Shown here: positions 2,415-13,947 of the stretch, piece by piece | Numbering within the stretch: position 1 is the stretch's first letter | How the letters are laid out: each line of letters opens with the position of its first letter | From: Rhizobium acidisoli | GTDB lineage: Bacteria > Pseudomonadota > Alphaproteobacteria > Rhizobiales > Rhizobiaceae | Direction of reading: 5' to 3' | DNA: 64,000 bases | Assembly (NCBI RefSeq): GCF_002531755.2 | Contig: NZ_CP034998.1 | Coordinates: 4,146,501-4,210,500, forward strand | Notes under the pieces: model-generated | Seen by the model: the letters and a program-made list of their open reading frames with translations, nothing else | The model's database searches: none | What the model was told of the DNA's origin: nothing | Translations under genes and position numbers: made by a program

Positions 2415-2465
2415 AATGCATGTCGTTATCCCGGAACTGCTGCGCAGCTCCGGCAACTTGCATTA
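2415..2465. repeat. Palindromic intergenic repeat, copy A (between holA and parB)
   Basis: An imperfect inverted repeat: the left arm starts AATGCATGTCGTTATCCCGG and the right arm ends CTCCGGCAACTTGCATTA. It sits between the convergent holA and parB stops and covers the parB stop codon. About 42 of 50 positions match the reverse complement of the copy at 45840-45890, and a more diverged copy lies at 29715-29759. It probably forms a hairpin in both transcripts and may act as a bidirectional terminator, although no U-run follows. Confidence 0.75.
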
Positions 2466-3344
2466 ACGTCTTTCGAGCAGACGGCAGATTTCCTCGAGCT
2501 GCTCCAGCGACTTGTAGGAAATTTTGATCTGGCCGCCGCTCGTCTTGTGATTGATTGCAACATCGAGGCCGAGTGCATCGGACAGCGTCCGCTCCAGGGC
2601 CAGCGTGTCTGAATCCTTCTGATCTCGCCGCGAGGCGGCCAGCTGCGGCTCGGATTGAGCTTTGATATTGTTTTGCGCCAGCTTTTCCGCATCGCGCACC
2701 GACATGCCTTTGGCAACGATGGTGCGAGCAAGACCTGCTGGATCCGGCGTCGAAACCAGTGCGCGCGCATGCCCGGCCGACAAGCTGCCGGCGGCCAGCA
2801 GATCGCGAACCGGATCGGGCAGCTTCAGCAGCCGCAACGAGTTTGCAACGTGGCTGCGGCTCTTGCCGATGATTTCGCCGAGGTCGTTTTGCGTATAACC
2901 ATATTCGGCAATCAGCTGCTCGTAACCCAGAGCCTCTTCGAGGGGATTGAGATCGGCGCGCTGTACGTTTTCGACAATGGCGATCTCCAGCGCCGTCTTG
3001 TCATCCACATCCCGGACAATCACGGGGATCTCGATCAACCCAGCCAATTGGGCGGCACGCCAGCGTCGCTCGCCGGCGATGATCTCGTATCGATCGCGAT
3101 CCATTGTCCGCACGACGATCGGCTGCACGATACCGTGCTGGCGAATGGAGCTGGCGAGATCGTGCAGTTCGGTGTCATCGAAGAAACGACGAGGATTGCG
3201 CGGATTGCGGCTGACGAACTCGATGGGGATCATTCTGTCGGCGCTGATCGCCCGCTCGGCTTCCACCGGGACAGGCTGATCCATTTCGCCAATCAGCGCC
3301 GCAAGGCCACGGCCCAATCGCCTTTTCGATACATCGTCATTCAT
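2463..3344 (-). CDS. parB: Chromosome-partitioning protein ParB
   Basis: Binds parS palindromes near the origin, spreads as a CTP-dependent clamp, and drives origin segregation with ParA. 293 residues, normal length. The N-terminal ParA-stimulating motif is RRLGRGLAALIGE (residues 8-20); the CTP-binding ParB domain has NPRNPRRFF (47-55) and GERRWRAAQL (91-100); the helix-turn-helix includes IIGKSRSHVANSLRLL near 155-170; and a dimerisation region closes the C-terminus. It starts at ATG 3344, 27 bases after the parA stop, as the last gene of the origin-proximal leftward series. Matching parS sites are at 4768, 6757 and 13095. Confidence 0.97.
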   Translation of the reverse strand: MNDDVSKRRLGRGLAALIGEMDQPVPVEAERAISADRMIPIEFVSRNPRNPRRFFDDTELHDLASSIRQHGIVQPIVVRTMDRDRYEIIAGERRWRAAQLAGLIEIPVIVRDVDDKTALEIAIVENVQRADLNPLEEALGYEQLIAEYGYTQNDLGEIIGKSRSHVANSLRLLKLPDPVRDLLAAGSLSAGHARALVSTPDPAGLARTIVAKGMSVRDAEKLAQNNIKAQSEPQLAASRRDQKDSDTLALERTLSDALGLDVAINHKTSGGQIKISYKSLEQLEEICRLLERR

Positions 3345-3371
3345 GATCCAAACTCACCCCTGCAATGATAG

Positions 3372-4166
3372 TTACGCTGCCAGCCGCTGGCGCTCGCGTT
3401 GAATGACCTCCGAGGCCAGCTGCAGATAGGCCTGACTGCCCGCGCATTTCAGATCATAGAGAATGGCTGGCTTGCCGTAGGAGGGCGCCTCGGAGACCCG
3501 TACGTTGCGCGGAATTAACGTGTGGTAAACCTTTTCACCGAGATGTGTGCGCACATCATTGACCACTTGCTGGGCAAGATTGTTGCGCGCATCGAACATC
3601 GTCAAGACGATCCCCTGGATATCCAGACGCGGGTTCACCGTCCTGCGAACCTGGCTGACGGTCTCGAGCAATTGGCTCAACCCTTCCAGCGCGAAGAATT
3701 CGCACTGCAGCGGCACCAGCACCGAATGGGCTGCCGCCATCGCATTCATCGTCAGCAGGTTGAACGAGGGCGGGCAATCCAGGAGAATATACGAAAATGC
3801 CATGGCTTCGGGCGACGACAGCGCCTTGCGCAATTTGAATACCCGATCGCTCTGCTGCGAGATCTCCATCTCGACACCGAGCAGATCCATCGTCGAAGGA
3901 ACGATGAAAAGATTGGGCACGGCGGTTTCGAGCGTCACTTCGGTTATTCCACGCTCGCCGATCATCAGGTCGTACGAGGAGAGCTTGCGGTCCCGACGGT
4001 CGATGCCAAGACCAGTGCTGGCATTGCCCTGCGGATCGAGATCGACGATCAGGACACGCTCGCCAATAGCAGCGAGCGCTGTTGCCAGGTTGATAGCGGT
4101 GGTCGTTTTGCCAACGCCACCCTTTTGATTTGCGATGGTGATAATCCGATGTCGTTCGCCAGCCAT
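3372..4166 (-). CDS. parA: Chromosome-partitioning ATPase ParA
   Basis: Deviant Walker ATPase that forms DNA-bound dimers and moves ParB-parS complexes. 264 residues; Walker A is KGGVGKTT at residues 15-22 with the signature first Lys of the ParA/MinD family. LIVDLDPQGNASTGL is the A' region and YILLDCPPSF the Walker B region. The short N-terminus without a DNA-binding domain marks the chromosomal rather than the plasmid RepA type. It lies 20 bases downstream of the rsmG stop, in the usual rsmG-parA-parB order. Confidence 0.97.
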   Translation of the reverse strand: MAGERHRIITIANQKGGVGKTTTAINLATALAAIGERVLIVDLDPQGNASTGLGIDRRDRKLSSYDLMIGERGITEVTLETAVPNLFIVPSTMDLLGVEMEISQQSDRVFKLRKALSSPEAMAFSYILLDCPPSFNLLTMNAMAAAHSVLVPLQCEFFALEGLSQLLETVSQVRRTVNPRLDIQGIVLTMFDARNNLAQQVVNDVRTHLGEKVYHTLIPRNVRVSEAPSYGKPAILYDLKCAGSQAYLQLASEVIQRERQRLAA

Positions 4167-4185: not shown

Positions 4186-4803
4186 TTAAACCAAGCGCCG
4201 GAGATTCGATATTTCCAGAATGACAGATTCCTGCTCGACGGCGCTACTATGTTCTAACAGATCGAATTCCCACCGACCACGTGCTTTGTCGATTTCCCTC
4301 AGGTAATCCCGGCCTTTATGAAAAAAGCCGCGGCAATCTTTTTCGCCCAGCATCCAGGGAGCAGAATATTCGAGGAGTCTGTCAAGATCGGCGAGCGCCC
4401 GGGCCGAAATCGCCCCGCATTCCCCGATCTCCGCATGGGCATCTTCGATCCGGCTGCTGTGCACGCTGCCGCGGGCATTTGTTTCCCGCAGCGCTGTTCG
4501 GAGGAAAGCGGCCTTCTTGTGATTGCTCTCGACCAGATGCACCCATCCGTCCTTCAGTTCGGCCAGGAAGATCGCCGTGATGACGCCGGGAAAACCGCCG
4601 CCGCTTCCGAGGTCGGCCCAGATCACCGGCTTGGGATGGATTTGAAACACTTGGCTGCTGTCGGCGATGTGCCGGTTCCAGAGATCGTCGAGCGTCGACG
4701 GCGCCACCAGGTTGATGGTTTTTGCCCATTTCTGAAAGAGCGCCGAGAAGTGTTGAAGCCGTTCCTGTGTTTCACGTGAAACACGTAAACCGTTTAATTC
4801 CAT
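4186..4803 (-). CDS. rsmG: 16S rRNA (guanine527-N7)-methyltransferase RsmG
   Basis: Methylates G527 in the 530 loop of 16S rRNA using SAM. The 205-residue product has the SAM-binding motif [10 protein letters not shown] at residues 64-73 and the family motif [19 protein letters not shown] before it. I used ATG at 4803, preceded by GAGAGTAAGA; an in-frame TTG at 4815 would add four residues. A perfect 16-bp parS is embedded in the coding sequence at 4768-4783 and read as VSRET, so the N-terminus is constrained by both protein and partition function. It follows mnmG by 22 bases. Confidence 0.95.
4768..4783. promoter_or_regulatory. parS site 1 (perfect)
   Basis: TGTTTCACGTGAAACA, an exact match to the ParB-binding consensus known from Bacillus and many other bacteria, within the rsmG N-terminal codons, about 6.6 kb from the DnaA boxes and 0.6 kb from parA. 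Confidence 0.95.
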
Positions 4804-6756: not shown

Positions 6757-6772
6757 TGTTTCACGTGAATCA
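6757..6772. promoter_or_regulatory. parS site 2 (one mismatch)
   Basis: TGTTTCACGTGAATCA differs from the parS consensus at one arm position. It spans the mnmE stop codon and the gap before mnmG, about 4.7 kb from the DnaA boxes. Confidence 0.88.
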
Positions 6773-9660: not shown

Positions 9661-10199
9661 AACGGCTTCACCACGACAAGGATCACGATCACGATCATCA
9701 GCAAGGTCGGCGCTTCGTTCATGAAGCGCCAATAGCGCGCGGAGCGGCGATTTTCATCTTGCTCGAAGGCGCGGACCGCGCGGCTGAAAAACATATGAAC
9801 ACCGGTCAGCAGCACGACGAGGCCGATCTTGGCATGCAGCCAGCCGCCCTGGAATCCATAGACGGACCAGGCGAGATAGAGGCCGAAAATCCACGTCAGC
9901 ATCATCGCCGGCGTCATGATGATCCGAAGCAGCCGGCGCTCCATCACCTTGAAGGTTTCCGATTGCACCGAGCCCGGTTCGGCATCGGTGTGGTAGATGA
10001 ACAGCCGCGGCATATAGAACAACCCGGCCATCCAGGAAATCACCGCGATGATGTGCAGCGCCTTGATCCAGAGATAGAGATTATCAGGGTTCCAGGCGAA
10101 AAGCCCGACCGCCATCAGCGCGAAGAAAACCAGCGCAAAATGGGCGCGCCGGCGGGCATAGGCGCCGGGTCTGCGATCGGTCTGCCTTTCCATCGTCAC
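9657..10199 (-). CDS. hemJ: Protoporphyrinogen IX oxidase HemJ
   Basis: Inner-membrane, heme-binding enzyme that oxidises protoporphyrinogen IX to protoporphyrin IX in heme synthesis. The 180-residue product has about four membrane segments: 22-38, 46-70 ([18 protein letters not shown], containing the conserved His), 95-115 and 125-140, plus a hydrophobic C-terminal tail. GTG at 10199 overlaps the hemE stop as GTGA, supporting coupling; ATG 10193 would remove two residues. Its place directly behind hemE, another heme-pathway enzyme, supports the call over an uncharacterised UPF0093 label. Confidence 0.92.
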
Positions 10200-11242
10200 T
10201 TCCCGCCTCGCATCTGGCCGCCCCGCACGCGATCGACCAGCAGGCGCACATGCTCGGGGTCGGCCTGCGGCGTGATGCCGTGGCCGAGATTGAAAATCAG
10301 CGGGCCATGGCCGAGATGCTGCAGAATATCGTCAATACCCTCTTCGAGCGCCCGCCCGCCGGCAACGACGCGCATCGGATCGAGATTGCCCTGCACCGGT
10401 CCGTCCTTCTGAAGTTCGGCGGCAAAGGCCAAAGGCACCGACCAGTCGAGGCCGATCGCATCGGCGCCCGTCTTCTGACGATAGTTCTTCAGCTGGTAAC
10501 CGGCGCCCTTGGCAAAGGCGATGATGCGCGCCTGCGGCCGCTGCGATTTGACCGAAGCGATCATTCGCGCAACCGGCCGGATCGCGAACGCCTCGAACTC
10601 CCTCTCGCCGAGAACGCCAGCCCAGGAATCGAAGATCTGCACGGCATCGGCGCCGGCATCGATCTGGGCGACGAGATAATCGGCCGACACATCCGCAAGC
10701 AGCATCAGCAGCTGTTCGAAGGCGCGGGGATGTTTGTAGGCGAAGAGACGGGCAGGGGCCTGATCCGGCGTGCCGTGACCGGCGATCATATAGGTCGCAA
10801 CCGTCCAGGGCGCCCCGCAGAAGCCGAGCAGCGTCGTCTCATCAGGCAACTCCTGGCGCAGCCGCCGCACCGTTTCCAGAACCGGTCTGAGATAATCGAC
10901 GACCTCTTCCCCGTTCAATCGCCCGATACCGGCTTCATCGATTGGATCCATCTCAGGGCCATGACCCTCGGTGAACCGGACGTTCCGCTTCATTGCATCG
11001 GGAATAACCAGGATATCGGAAAACAGAATGGCGGCGTCAAAGCCATAACGGCGGATCGGCTGCAATGTCACTTCGACGGCATGATCGGGCGTATAACAGA
11101 GATCGAGGAAACTTCCGGCCTTTGCCCGTGTCTGCCGATATTCCGGGAGATAACGTCCCGCCTGTCTCATCAGCCAGAGAGGAGGAGGGGAGAGGCTTTC
11201 ACCTTCGAGAACCCTCATGATCTTTCGGCGCGTGTCGCTCAA
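10196..11242 (-). CDS. hemE: Uroporphyrinogen decarboxylase
   Basis: Cytosolic enzyme removing four carboxyl groups from uroporphyrinogen III to give coproporphyrinogen III. 348 residues, usual size. Family signatures are [17 protein letters not shown] near residues 20-36 and [17 protein letters not shown] at 11242 is the best start because the product then begins [11 protein letters not shown] as in related proteins; AGGGAAG lies upstream. The next ATG (11218) would remove eight residues. It is the first gene left of the replication origin and is transcribed away from it, as in Caulobacter. Confidence 0.96.
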
Positions 11243-11249
11243 GCGCTTC

Positions 11250-11300
11250 TTCCCTATAAAAAATCAAAGATATTTTAAAAGGTTTCTATTTCTTAGAGTC
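11250..11300. other. AT-rich candidate DNA-unwinding element of oriC
   Basis: A run rich in A and T (including ATAAAAAATCAAAGATATT) that contrasts sharply with the GC-rich surroundings, 160 bases from the first perfect DnaA box. It may also hold hemE promoter elements. Confidence 0.6.
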
Positions 11301-11459
11301 GGTGTCTATCAAGGATTAAAATCCATCCACTGCCGATGCCATTTGTCGCGTGCTCGCAAAAAATATCGGAAGGATTTCGCCATTTCATCGAAAGTTCGGG
11401 GAGAAACCGAATCTGAAAATGATTCCAAATCCTTCCGGATCAATGATTTTTCTCGTGGC

Positions 11460-11468
11460 TGTGGATAA
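11460..11468 (-). promoter_or_regulatory. DnaA box 1
   Basis: TGTGGATAA, the exact complement of the consensus TTATCCACA. A second partial copy (TGTGGACCT) begins at 11471. Confidence 0.92.
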
Positions 11469-11548
11469 GCTGTGGACCTCATCTCGACAATTCAACCTCT
11501 TCCACATCGTCCACAGGGCCTGCCGAAACCGATCTGCAAAATTCGAAA

Positions 11549-11557
11549 TGTGGATAA
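11549..11557 (-). promoter_or_regulatory. DnaA box 2
   Basis: TGTGGATAA, a second perfect DnaA box in the same orientation, 89 bases from the first. Confidence 0.92.
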
Positions 11558-11642
11558 GGGGGCATGTTTTCCCTTGCCGGGAGATGCCTCGCCGCCTTAG
11601 CTCTGTTTCATCCAGTCTTTTCAACAGGCAGTGGAAAATAGC

Positions 11643-12464
11643 GTGGAGAACAGAACGAACTTCTTTCATCTGCATCTGATTTCTGACTCAACCGGGGAGA
11701 CTCTGATCTCCGCCGGGCGCGCCGCATCGGCGCAGTTCAGATCCGCGCAGCCGATCGAACATGTCTATCCGCTGATCCGTAACCGCAAGCAGCTGCTGCC
11801 GGTTCTGCAGGCGATCGATGATGCCCCCGGCATCGTGCTCTATACGATCGTCGACCGGGAGCTTGCGAGCCTGATCGATGAACGCTGCGTCGAGATGGGT
11901 GTCGCCTCGGTGAATGTGCTGGAGCCGGTCATGAATGCGTTTCAGATCTATCTCGGTGCGCCGTCGCGCCGTCGGGTCGGTGCCCAGCATGTGATGAATG
12001 CCGGATACTTCGCGCGCATCGAAGCGTTGAATTTCACCATGGATCATGACGATGGCCAGATGCCGGACGATTATAATGACGCCGATGTCGTCATCATCGG
12101 CATCAGCCGCACGTCGAAAACACCGACCAGCATCTACCTTGCCAACCGCGGCATCAAGACGGCGAACATTCCGATCGTTTATGGCGTGCCGTTGCCGGAG
12201 AGCCTGTTCACGACGACCAAGCCGCTGATCGTCTGCCTGATCGCCACCACCGACCGTATCTCCCAGGTGCGGGAAAATCGCATCCTCGGCGCGACGCATG
12301 GCTTCGATCGTGAACACTACACCGATCGCGCCGCAATATCCGAGGAGCTGAAATATGCCCGCTCGCTCTGCGCTCGCCACAACTGGCCGCTGATCGACGT
12401 CACTCGCCGCTCCATCGAGGAAACCGCCGCGGCAATCGTTGCCCTGCGCCCAAAGCTGCGCTAA
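11643..12464 (+). CDS. ppsR: Pyruvate, phosphate dikinase regulatory protein (DUF299 kinase/pyrophosphorylase)
   Basis: Bifunctional kinase/phosphotransferase that phosphorylates and reactivates pyruvate phosphate dikinase or PEP synthase. About 273 residues. The N-terminus [15 protein letters not shown] and the P-loop-like [18 protein letters not shown] (near residues 150-167) are family signatures, followed by [12 protein letters not shown] chose GTG 11643 ([10 protein letters not shown]), with GTGGAAA upstream; GTG 11631 would add four residues but lacks a spaced ribosome site. It is the first gene right of oriC; I recall a DUF299 gene also flanking the Caulobacter origin opposite hemE. 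Which dikinase it controls is not visible here. Confidence 0.9.
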
Positions 12465-12497: not shown

Positions 12498-13097
12498 ATG
12501 ACAACAAAACTCATCCTTGCATCGTCGAGCCCGTTTCGACGGATGCTGATGGAAAATGCCGGCCTATCCTTCGAGGCGCATGCCGCGCAGATCGATGAAC
12601 GGGCGGTCGAAGCCCCGTTGGAAAAAGCTGGCGCTCAACCAGATGCCGTTGCTCTCGTTCTCGCCAGGGCCAAGGCCGAAGAGGTCAGCAGCCGTTTCCC
12701 CGATGGCCTGGTCATCGGTTCGGATCAGACGATGTCGCTCGGCGATCGCGTCTTCCATAAGCCCACGGATATGGTAGAGGCGGCCAATCACCTTCAGACT
12801 CTTTCGGGAGCAACCCACCGGTTGAACAGCGCTGTGGCAATCGTCCGCAACGGTGTTGTGGTGTGGGAACATCTCGCCCATGCCGATCTGACCATGCGGC
12901 CGCTGACGGCGGATTTCATTGGCCGGCACCTGGCCCGGGTCGGCAACAAGGCGCTCTCCAGCGTCGGCGCCTATCAATTGGAGGGGGAGGGCATCCAGCT
13001 GTTCGAGAAAATCGAAGGTGATTATTTCACCATTCTCGGCCTGCCGATGCTGCCGCTTCTGGAAAAATTACGAGACCTCGGAGCGATCGATGGGTGA
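12498..13097 (+). CDS. maf: Maf-family nucleoside triphosphate pyrophosphatase
   Basis: House-cleaning enzyme hydrolysing non-canonical or modified nucleotides to monophosphates. 199 residues; the N-terminal [16 protein letters not shown] contains the Maf S-S-P-x-R signature, and GSDQTMSL and HKPTD hold further conserved residues. ATG 12498 has GAGGAG seven bases upstream. It begins 33 bases after ppsR, and its last codons overlap aroE by eight bases. The subfamily (dTTP/UTP or m7GTP type) cannot be settled by eye. Confidence 0.93.
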
Positions 13098-13947
13098 TTC
13101 ACGTGAAACATTCGGGCCGAAAGCGTTTGTCACGGGCTTTCCGGTCAAGCATTCGCGCTCGCCGTTGATCCACGGATATTGGCTGAAGACGCTCGGCCTG
13201 CCAGGCAGCTATCGCGCCCATGAAGTGGCGCCCGAGGCCTTTGCCGATTTCATCGCTTCGCTGAAGGATGGCAGTTCCGGCTTTACCGGCGGCAATGTCA
13301 CCATTCCCCACAAGGAACTGGCTTTCCGTCTCGCCGACAAGCCGGACGAACTATCGCACGAGCTCGGCGCCTCGAACACGCTTTGGCTGGACGATGGCCT
13401 GCTGCATGCGACGAACACCGACGGCCGCGGCTTCACCGCCAATCTCGACGAACGCCATCCGGGCTGGGACCGCCAGGACACGGCGGTCGTCTTTGGCGCC
13501 GGCGGCGCCAGCCGGGCGATCATCCAGGCGGTTCGTGATCGTGGTTTCAAGACGATTCACGTCGTCAACCGCACCGTCGAACGCGCCCGTGAACTGGCCG
13601 ATCGCTTTGGTCCGAAGGTTGAGGCCCATCCGGCGGGTGCGCTTGTCGAGGTCATGAAAGGCGCCGGCCTCTTCATCAATACCACCTCGCTCGGCATGGA
13701 CGGCGAAGCCGCACCCCAACTCGACTTCACCCCTCTTGCGGCTGGAGCCGTCGTCACCGATATCGTCTATATCCCCCTGAAGACGCCGATCCTGGCGCAG
13801 GCGCAAGAGCAGGGATTTCCGATCGTCGATGGTCTCGGCATGCTGTTGCATCAGGCCGTGCCGGGATTCGAAAAATGGTTCGGCAAGCGTCCTGTCGTCG
13901 ACGCAGCACTGCGCGCGCTGATTATCGCCGATATGGAAGCACACTGA
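13090..13947 (+). CDS. aroE: Shikimate dehydrogenase
   Basis: NADPH-dependent reduction of 3-dehydroshikimate to shikimate in aromatic amino acid synthesis. 285 residues. [13 protein letters not shown] binds shikimate, GNVTIPHKE carries the catalytic Lys, NTDGRGF holds the conserved Asp, and GAGGASRAI is the Rossmann loop. ATG 13090 overlaps maf by eight bases, and the product starts [10 protein letters not shown] near-perfect parS lies in codons 2-7, which suggests a dual-use N-terminus. The stop overlaps the coaE start. Confidence 0.96.
13095..13110. promoter_or_regulatory. parS site 3 (one mismatch), inside aroE
   Basis: TGATTCACGTGAAACA differs from the consensus at one arm position and is read through as DSRET of AroE. 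It lies about 1.6 kb to the right of the DnaA boxes, so the origin is bracketed by parS sites on both sides. Confidence 0.88.

Follow-up and report, generated by a model that had tools for sequence, protein, structure and literature searches.

A conserved 21-bp element adjoins hemE at the probable chromosomal replication origin of Rhizobium acidisoli and of most other Rhizobiaceae examined

The window analyzed in this study is a 64,000-nucleotide stretch of Rhizobium acidisoli DNA, corresponding to bases 4,146,501–4,210,500 of contig NZ_CP034998.1 (hereafter C1; 4,569,280 bases) in a 7.5-Mb genome of five contigs. C1 starts at dnaA (match at base 523), and the contig was assumed to be circular because of this start. 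No repC was detected on C1, and six were detected on the other contigs of the same genome; for this reason, C1 was interpreted as the main chromosome. Within the window, a gap at 11,243–11,642 is bounded by two divergent genes identified by gene match, hemE on the left (10,196–11,242, minus strand) and ppsR, a COG1806-type kinase/pyrophosphorylase, on the right (11,643–12,464, plus strand). The eight genes to the left (hemE, hemJ, rho, mnmE, mnmG, rsmG, parA, and parB) are all on the minus strand, and the five to the right (ppsR, maf, aroE, coaE, and dnaQ) are on the plus strand, followed by secB on the minus strand. An earlier reading of this DNA, made from the sequence only, had described eight genes on the left and five on the right as pointing away from the gap, and the directions match. 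The genes parB and parA, also found by gene match, occupy 2,463–4,166 (minus strand), and a site scan located one perfect parS (4,768–4,783) and two parS sites with one mismatch each (6,757–6,772 and 13,095–13,110), all on the plus strand. All of these partition genes and sites lie less than 9 kb from the gap.

The gap contains two perfect DnaA boxes (TTATCCACA) on the minus strand, at 11,460–11,468 and 11,549–11,557, and three boxes with two mismatches on the plus strand, at 11,498–11,506, 11,507–11,515, and 11,618–11,626 (the last a DnaA-box-like TTTTCAACA); the sequence-only reading had mentioned both kinds of box, and both are present. The alignment of dereplicated origins added a weak box with three mismatches at 11,471–11,479 (minus strand). 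Box recurrence was counted in 54 dereplicated origins, which were loci picked by means of the block pattern described below. The box at 11,549–11,557 was the best conserved, with at most one mismatch in 96% of these origins (72% for the box at 11,460–11,468), and the three two-mismatch boxes recurred at the same alignment place with at most two mismatches in 50, 57, and 98% of the 54, respectively. In a 2.05-Mb sample of C1 (45% of the contig), seven perfect boxes were found vs. 6.0 expected, and the two in the gap were the sole pair less than 400 bp apart; given the base composition, the probability of two perfect boxes in one 400-bp gap is ∼7 × 10^-7. Over the whole window, perfect and one-mismatch boxes together showed no excess (5 found vs. 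4.3 expected). The origin signal in the boxes is their clustering and not their number over the window, and lone two-mismatch boxes carry little meaning. A box cluster above chance, one of the marks of a hemE-type origin, is present in the gap. Outside the sample, at least one further perfect pair occurs, at C1:1649211 and C1:1649222, 11 bp apart. This pair is part of an intergenic array of three DnaA boxes in tandem, of which two are perfect (TGTGGATAAGCTGTGGATAATAGGTGGAT; C1:1649211–1649239; L002:1501–1529), and it is possible that they form a DnaA-titrating or regulatory site.

The gap is also unusual in base composition, with an AT content of 55% vs. a mean of 38.5%, which places it at the 99.86th percentile among sampled 400-bp windows. 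The AT-rich stretch pointed out in the sequence-only reading corresponds to the 40-mer at 11,255–11,294, which is 85% AT, a value reached by ∼1 in 100,000 of the sampled 40-mers, and this stretch is a candidate start of unwinding. The gap contains no Caulobacter-type CtrA site (TTAA-N7-TTAA) and no full match to the IHF site WATCAANNNNTTR; by inspection, TATCAAGGATTAA at 11,307 differs from the latter at one specified base.

On the scale of the chromosome, strand asymmetry was analyzed in 20-kb stretches taken each 45 kb along C1, which make up the 2.05-Mb sample. A two-breakpoint GC-skew fit with no prior yielded 4.16 Mb for the origin and 1.85 Mb for the terminus, and four GC- and keto-skew fits on the 20-kb grid gave origins at 4.16–4.18 Mb and termini at 1.63–1.85 Mb. 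The gap is located at 4.158 Mb, at most ∼25 kb from the skew-fitted origin; a skew switch elsewhere had been named in advance as a result that would speak against an origin here, and this outcome was not observed. The KOPS motif GGGNAGGG showed a polarity of 120:26 in the right arm vs. 21:113 in the left arm of the same sample, with fitted switches at 3.8–4.14 and 1.73–1.81 Mb; this polarity was about equal on both arms, whereas the GC skew was weak on the right arm and strong on the left. Local skew within the window was noisy, with no sharp turn at 11.4 kb, and gene-orientation bias gave no origin signal in the C1 sample. A gamma-type dif pattern had no match in the genome. In four relatives, the contigs start near this gap (ppsR at bases 393 and 473; the conserved block at bases 41 and 112), as if base 1 had been placed at the origin by the authors of those assemblies.

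The same arrangement is known from other members of the class. The Caulobacter origin lies between hemE and COG1806 and is 404 bp long (PMC1914354), in agreement with the sequence-only reading, which had cited a Caulobacter origin next to hemE; Table 1 of the same report lists four Rickettsia origins between these genes with lengths of 383–396 bp. The gap studied here therefore has the same flanking genes as Caulobacter crescentus Cori and the Rickettsia origins and nearly the same length, and a hemE–ppsR gap of ∼400 bp appears across the class, in Rhizobiaceae and, in that table, in Caulobacter and Rickettsia. In Hyphomonas, read depth peaks near hemE (PMC6650430). The skew fits, KOPS polarity, parS sites and parAB, the absence of repC, and the conservation in the family described below, together with the boxes and AT content, agree with the interpretation of the gap as the chromosomal origin (oriC) that had been proposed from sequence. 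We consider it nearly certain that 11,243–11,642 is a DnaA-dependent chromosomal origin, and as such it is ordinary both in kind and in place.

We then examined which parts of the gap are conserved. When 30 congeneric loci found via ppsR were aligned, the strongest block adjoined hemE and not the boxes. A pattern for this block, with up to three mismatches allowed, had a single match in each of 88 genomes out of 394 from the family, and no match was in reverse orientation. A laxer exact pattern matched at least 120 stretches in named genomes, and the 80 listed belonged to Rhizobium, Agrobacterium, Sinorhizobium/Ensifer, Shinella, Neorhizobium, Martelella, and other genera. In these 80 loci (8 kb each, with one shorter), hemE was on one side of the block in 79 and ppsR on the other side in 77; in the remaining four cases, the block was at the end of the locus. 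The distance from the block to ppsR was 353–360 bp in the 74 loci measured. Because selection on the block itself was to be avoided, ppsR and hemE alone were then used as search seeds. Among 116 family genomes, 114 had hemE and 88 had ppsR, and in 86 of the 87 with both genes these were divergent on one contig, with a median gap length of 400 bp (5–95% range, 378–444; 86 genomes). As controls of length, the rho–mnmE gap was variable (5–95% range, 31–343; n = 38), and the hemJ–rho gap was also fairly steady (quartiles, 189–198; 5–95% range, 179–213; n = 60), so constant length by itself is no proof of function. The origin was read in 76 of the 86 ppsR-selected genomes (the nine with the most diverged ppsR were left out, and G016 was used only in the 30-locus alignment), and the hemE flank was read in 19 of 27 family genomes that had hemE and no ppsR match, giving a total of 95 origins.

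The searches also returned several records with unexpected labels. A metagenome bin named Parasphingorhabdus (JAUCYS010000007.1) has a Rhizobiaceae-type block with hemE and ppsR matches, and its label or binning looks wrong. A 489-kb “circular plasmid” of Rhizobium sp. NLR16a (p3, NZ_CP072868.1) contains the entire hemE–origin–ppsR region with no repC match and no DnaA match, and is either a misassembled piece of a chromosome or a replicon living solely on the hemE–ppsR origin. CP090106.1 and four more Sinorhizobium/Shinella records of 3.5–4.6 Mb filed as plasmids (one as pSymB) carry both the conserved block and dnaA, and look like chromosomes.

The best conserved part of the gap is a 21-bp element at 11,283–11,303 (plus strand; family consensus yTTcTrwTTCTwwGASTCkGT) with a T at each third base (11,284, 11,287, 11,290, and 11,293), which the sequence-only reading had not mentioned. 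The element has the AT-rich stretch on one side and, on the other, a degenerate DnaA box with four mismatches (GGTGTCTAT; 11,301–11,309, minus strand), in a slot that is often TGTGGATAA in other alphaproteobacterial orders and is GGTGGATAG in several Rhizobiaceae. On the plus strand beyond it are CAAGGATTAA (11,310–11,319), the counterpart of a CGGGGAT found 3′ of the box in other orders, and a TCCAC (11,326–11,330), a DnaA-box core conserved in the alignment of 76 origins. At least 16 of the 21 bases were matched in 74 of the 76 ppsR-selected origins. The element was also present, adjoining hemE, in 17 of the 19 genomes read without ppsR, and the two without it are reduced genomes. In total, 91 of 95 family origins reached 16/21, and column figures for those 91 are inflated by this threshold. 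The four below it comprise two with a recognizable variant containing GAGTC (G140 and G169) and two reduced genomes of 1.1–1.5 Mb with no recognizable element (G065 and G100). In the 76 origins, T occupies columns 1, 4, 7, and 10 (counted from 0) in 76, 74, 75, and 75 cases, respectively. In the 2.05-Mb sample, the element scored ∼59 bits above the next place with a profile that includes the window itself. A 3.7-Mb record of Sinorhizobium meliloti has the element and the gene order ppsR–maf–aroE–coaE within its first 3.1 kb. The chromosomal origin of that species was reportedly the subject of a study by Sibley in 2006, and we found no earlier account of the element in the open-licence literature, which excludes that paper.

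The element contains the CcrM site GAGTC (11,296–11,300), which is at the same position in 75 of the 76 ppsR-selected origins and is shifted by one base in the 76th; the third base of this GANTC is G or C in all 76 (GASTC). At C1:699403, the genome encodes a CcrM-like adenine methylase that has a RAMA domain, so that it has both a GANTC conserved at a fixed place and a methylase of the kind expected to act on it. Because the site lies between the tract of spaced T residues and the degenerate box, full or hemi-methylation could tune opening after each round of replication, and such gating of the element is speculative. In Agrobacterium, CcrM depletion is reported to have delayed or disturbed ori2 and to have made no obvious difference to ori1 (PMC11514494), which speaks against a strong effect of methylation on an origin of the present type.

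The conservation of the element could also have arisen if it were the promoter or leader of hemE, perhaps under CcrM/GcrA control, with the origin working by the box array alone. In the ppsR-selected origins, the element is upstream of hemE, and the distance between its start and the hemE start as extrapolated is 31–85 bp (median, 45), with 35–60 bp in 69 of the 74 that score at least 16; moreover, as noted above, it stays with hemE where no ppsR was matched. A conserved GANTC in a promoter would suit GcrA/CcrM control. However, a crude consensus scan of 11,100–11,800 found no sigma-70-like promoter pair, the family keeps the columns of a box–GGGAT module that is found near hemE in other orders, and DnaA differs in the same lineage (both described below). 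A weaker point against it comes from one genome, in which an additional hemE, distant from the origin (G091:C1:2011934–2012971) and a paralogue with 46% identity, has no element. We consider a promoter or leader function unlikely as the explanation, and an unwinding module at the origin, for which the comparison with other alphaproteobacteria is informative, is the reading that we prefer.

In 20 loci of other families in the same order, the best match to the element was 13–18 of 21 bases, which is mostly background. A class-wide search covered 115 genomes, of which 97 besides that of R. acidisoli had hemE, and the 29 best-scoring loci were examined (28 from other orders and one from the same order). 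Beside hemE, the other orders often have, by eye, an AT-rich region, then a G/T-rich trinucleotide tract (TAG, TTG, and TGG), and then CC and TGTGGATAACGGGGAT. The best match to TGTGGATAACGGGGAT in the 29 hemE-linked loci averaged 12.0 of 16 bases vs. 9.2 in shuffled sequences. A test of register was made in the 14 of these loci that passed a cut of 12/16 within 160 bp of hemE, anchored on the box. T was favored at positions −8 and −11 (11 of 14 each), and the near-invariant T residues of the Rhizobiaceae at −8, −11, −14, and −17 share this register; the support is modest, as 107 of 5,000 random frames were as good. Four further columns, which played no part in the selection, are retained in the family: C at +9 (87/91), G at +12 (82/91), A at +14 (80/91), and T at +15 (87/91). 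The AT content peaks on the same side of the module in the family (91 origins) and in other orders (14 origins). Based on the shared T register, kept columns, and side of the AT peak, the element appears to be a derived form of an alphaproteobacterial tract-plus-box module.

This layout resembles the basal unwinding system (BUS) of Bacillus subtilis and others, in which DnaA-trios lie on the 5′ tail adjoining a box and, by definition, comprise a minimum of three NAN triplets no more than 16 bp from a box (PMC8287927). It may therefore be asked whether the Rhizobium origin is an ordinary DnaA-trio origin that has diverged past the pattern used. In both, the tract is on the 5′ side of a box of the TGTGGATAA type, on the same strand, and AT-rich DNA lies beyond the tract. 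The T at each third base is in register with the other orders, and one family origin, G112, matches the trio pattern within the element, with TAT TAT TAG before TGTGAATAG. However, inspection of the element in the window revealed no run of three NAN triplets in any frame, and its box at 11,301, with four mismatches, fails the limit of two mismatches within 16 bp of the tract; three consecutive NAN triplets occurred in only 2 of 91 family tracts (G098 and G112), and only G112 has the box as well. The pattern was found anywhere in 8 of 95 family origins on each strand vs. 2.7 expected. A canonical BUS at the Rhizobium origin was accordingly rejected, because the window and almost the entire family did not pass the formal test, and a diverged but ordinary trio origin is decidedly improbable. 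In the other orders, the strict test gave 4 of 29 loci with the expected polarity and 4 of 29 with the opposite one (0.6 expected); as the two polarities are equal, the basis for the likeness to trios there is the box, together with the layout and the modest register test, and a trio reading of these orders is supported by layout. The E. coli oriC, with its 13-mers and R1 box, shares a T-rich strand beside a TGTGGATAA-oriented box; homology to it was considered and dropped because, among 99,704 places in 50 kb scored with the family profile, E. coli oriC came only 22nd. Finally, that the true origin lies elsewhere, either at dnaA (rotation of a contig to dnaA, here at base 523, is a common convention) or at C1:1649211 with its two perfect boxes 11 bp apart, is highly improbable, as a distance of 411 kb separates dnaA from the skew switch and likewise from the box pair of the gap, and C1:1649211 is near the fitted terminus (1.63–1.85 Mb).

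The interpretation of the element as an unwinding module also bears on DnaA, the protein that would act on it. The R. acidisoli DnaA was closest, among the matches listed, to that of Rhizobium leguminosarum (97% identity), and in a DnaA profile search the named matches among the best 120 listed were only Rhizobiaceae and Paracoccus. Alignment to solved and named DnaA proteins showed that the segment that includes the residues gripping single strands reads FMWRFATAI in R. acidisoli, FTNEFINSI in the B. subtilis type, and FVQDMVKAL in E. coli. In the B. subtilis protein, Asn187 contacts an adenine of the trio, and the Ile190Ala change causes a severe growth defect (PMC10721633); in E. coli, Val211 and Arg245 bind the single-stranded unwinding element with sequence specificity (PMC10316083). 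In the R. acidisoli protein, the position of Ile190/Val211 is occupied by Ala and that of Asn187 by Trp, unlike in the B. subtilis type. This combination was found in all 120 hits to the R. acidisoli query (the best 120 of 7,999) and in all 61 further hits of a second list, which makes a total of 181 close hits out of 181; those with names are Rhizobiaceae. The loop before QxEF was one residue shorter in 119 of the 120 and in all 61. Among the 120 listed hits to a Paracoccus query, the 190 position was Val in 117 and Ile in 3, with Tyr at 187, and Val or Ile at 190/211 was also found in Sphingomonas, Bandiella, Priestia, and E. coli. The DnaA sample consists of lists of closest hits, and the DnaA of the window's own genome is the one that it includes from the origins read. 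Because Trp187 and Ala190 sit at known contact positions, the residues that contact the tract differ in a lineage in which the tract also differs, and the change in DnaA and the change in DNA are one shared lineage event and not repeated ones. Loss of Arg245 was dropped as a lineage-specific trait, as the other alphaproteobacteria compared also have Ser. A dnaA-like stretch with 77% identity, split over two tblastn pieces and without a listed gene, was seen on the 440-kb plasmid pRlX5 of Rhizobium johnstonii (NZ_CP140850.1).

Based on these results, we propose the following model. DnaA would load on the strong and weak boxes arrayed over 11,460–11,626 and would spread from there to the degenerate box on the hemE side, where the strands are predicted to open at a module made up of the AT-rich stretch, the 21-bp element, the degenerate box, and CAAGGATTAA. 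The box-anchored DnaA would use its AAA+ domains to capture one of the element's strands and would run along it into the AT-rich stretch, whose opening would be followed by helicase loading. In the Rhizobiaceae, the trinucleotide tract of other alphaproteobacteria would have given way to a fixed T-rich sequence, and the residues with which DnaA grips the single strand would have changed in the same lineage. On the comparative evidence, it is probable that the 21-bp element is the unwinding module, and we propose that it is a lineage-specific unwinding element with which DnaA co-evolved. A stronger version is possible but doubtful: the Rhizobiaceae may have rewired origin opening, with a near-invariant element carrying a CcrM site and a co-evolved DnaA grip (Trp187, Ala190, and the shorter loop) that would be incompatible with the standard pair and may read the methylation of a new origin.

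The way in which bacterial origins specify their own opening is unsettled, and broad conservation is assumed for the trio model. The Rhizobiaceae, a large and well-studied family in which both the tract and the DnaA residues that contact it differ, would be a natural swap experiment, and the relationship between the element and DnaA can be tested with purified proteins and the genetics of S. meliloti. For the family itself, the 21-bp element can serve as a tag for the chromosomal origin, as it is present in most of the Rhizobiaceae examined, and it is useful where an assembly has been rotated to dnaA.
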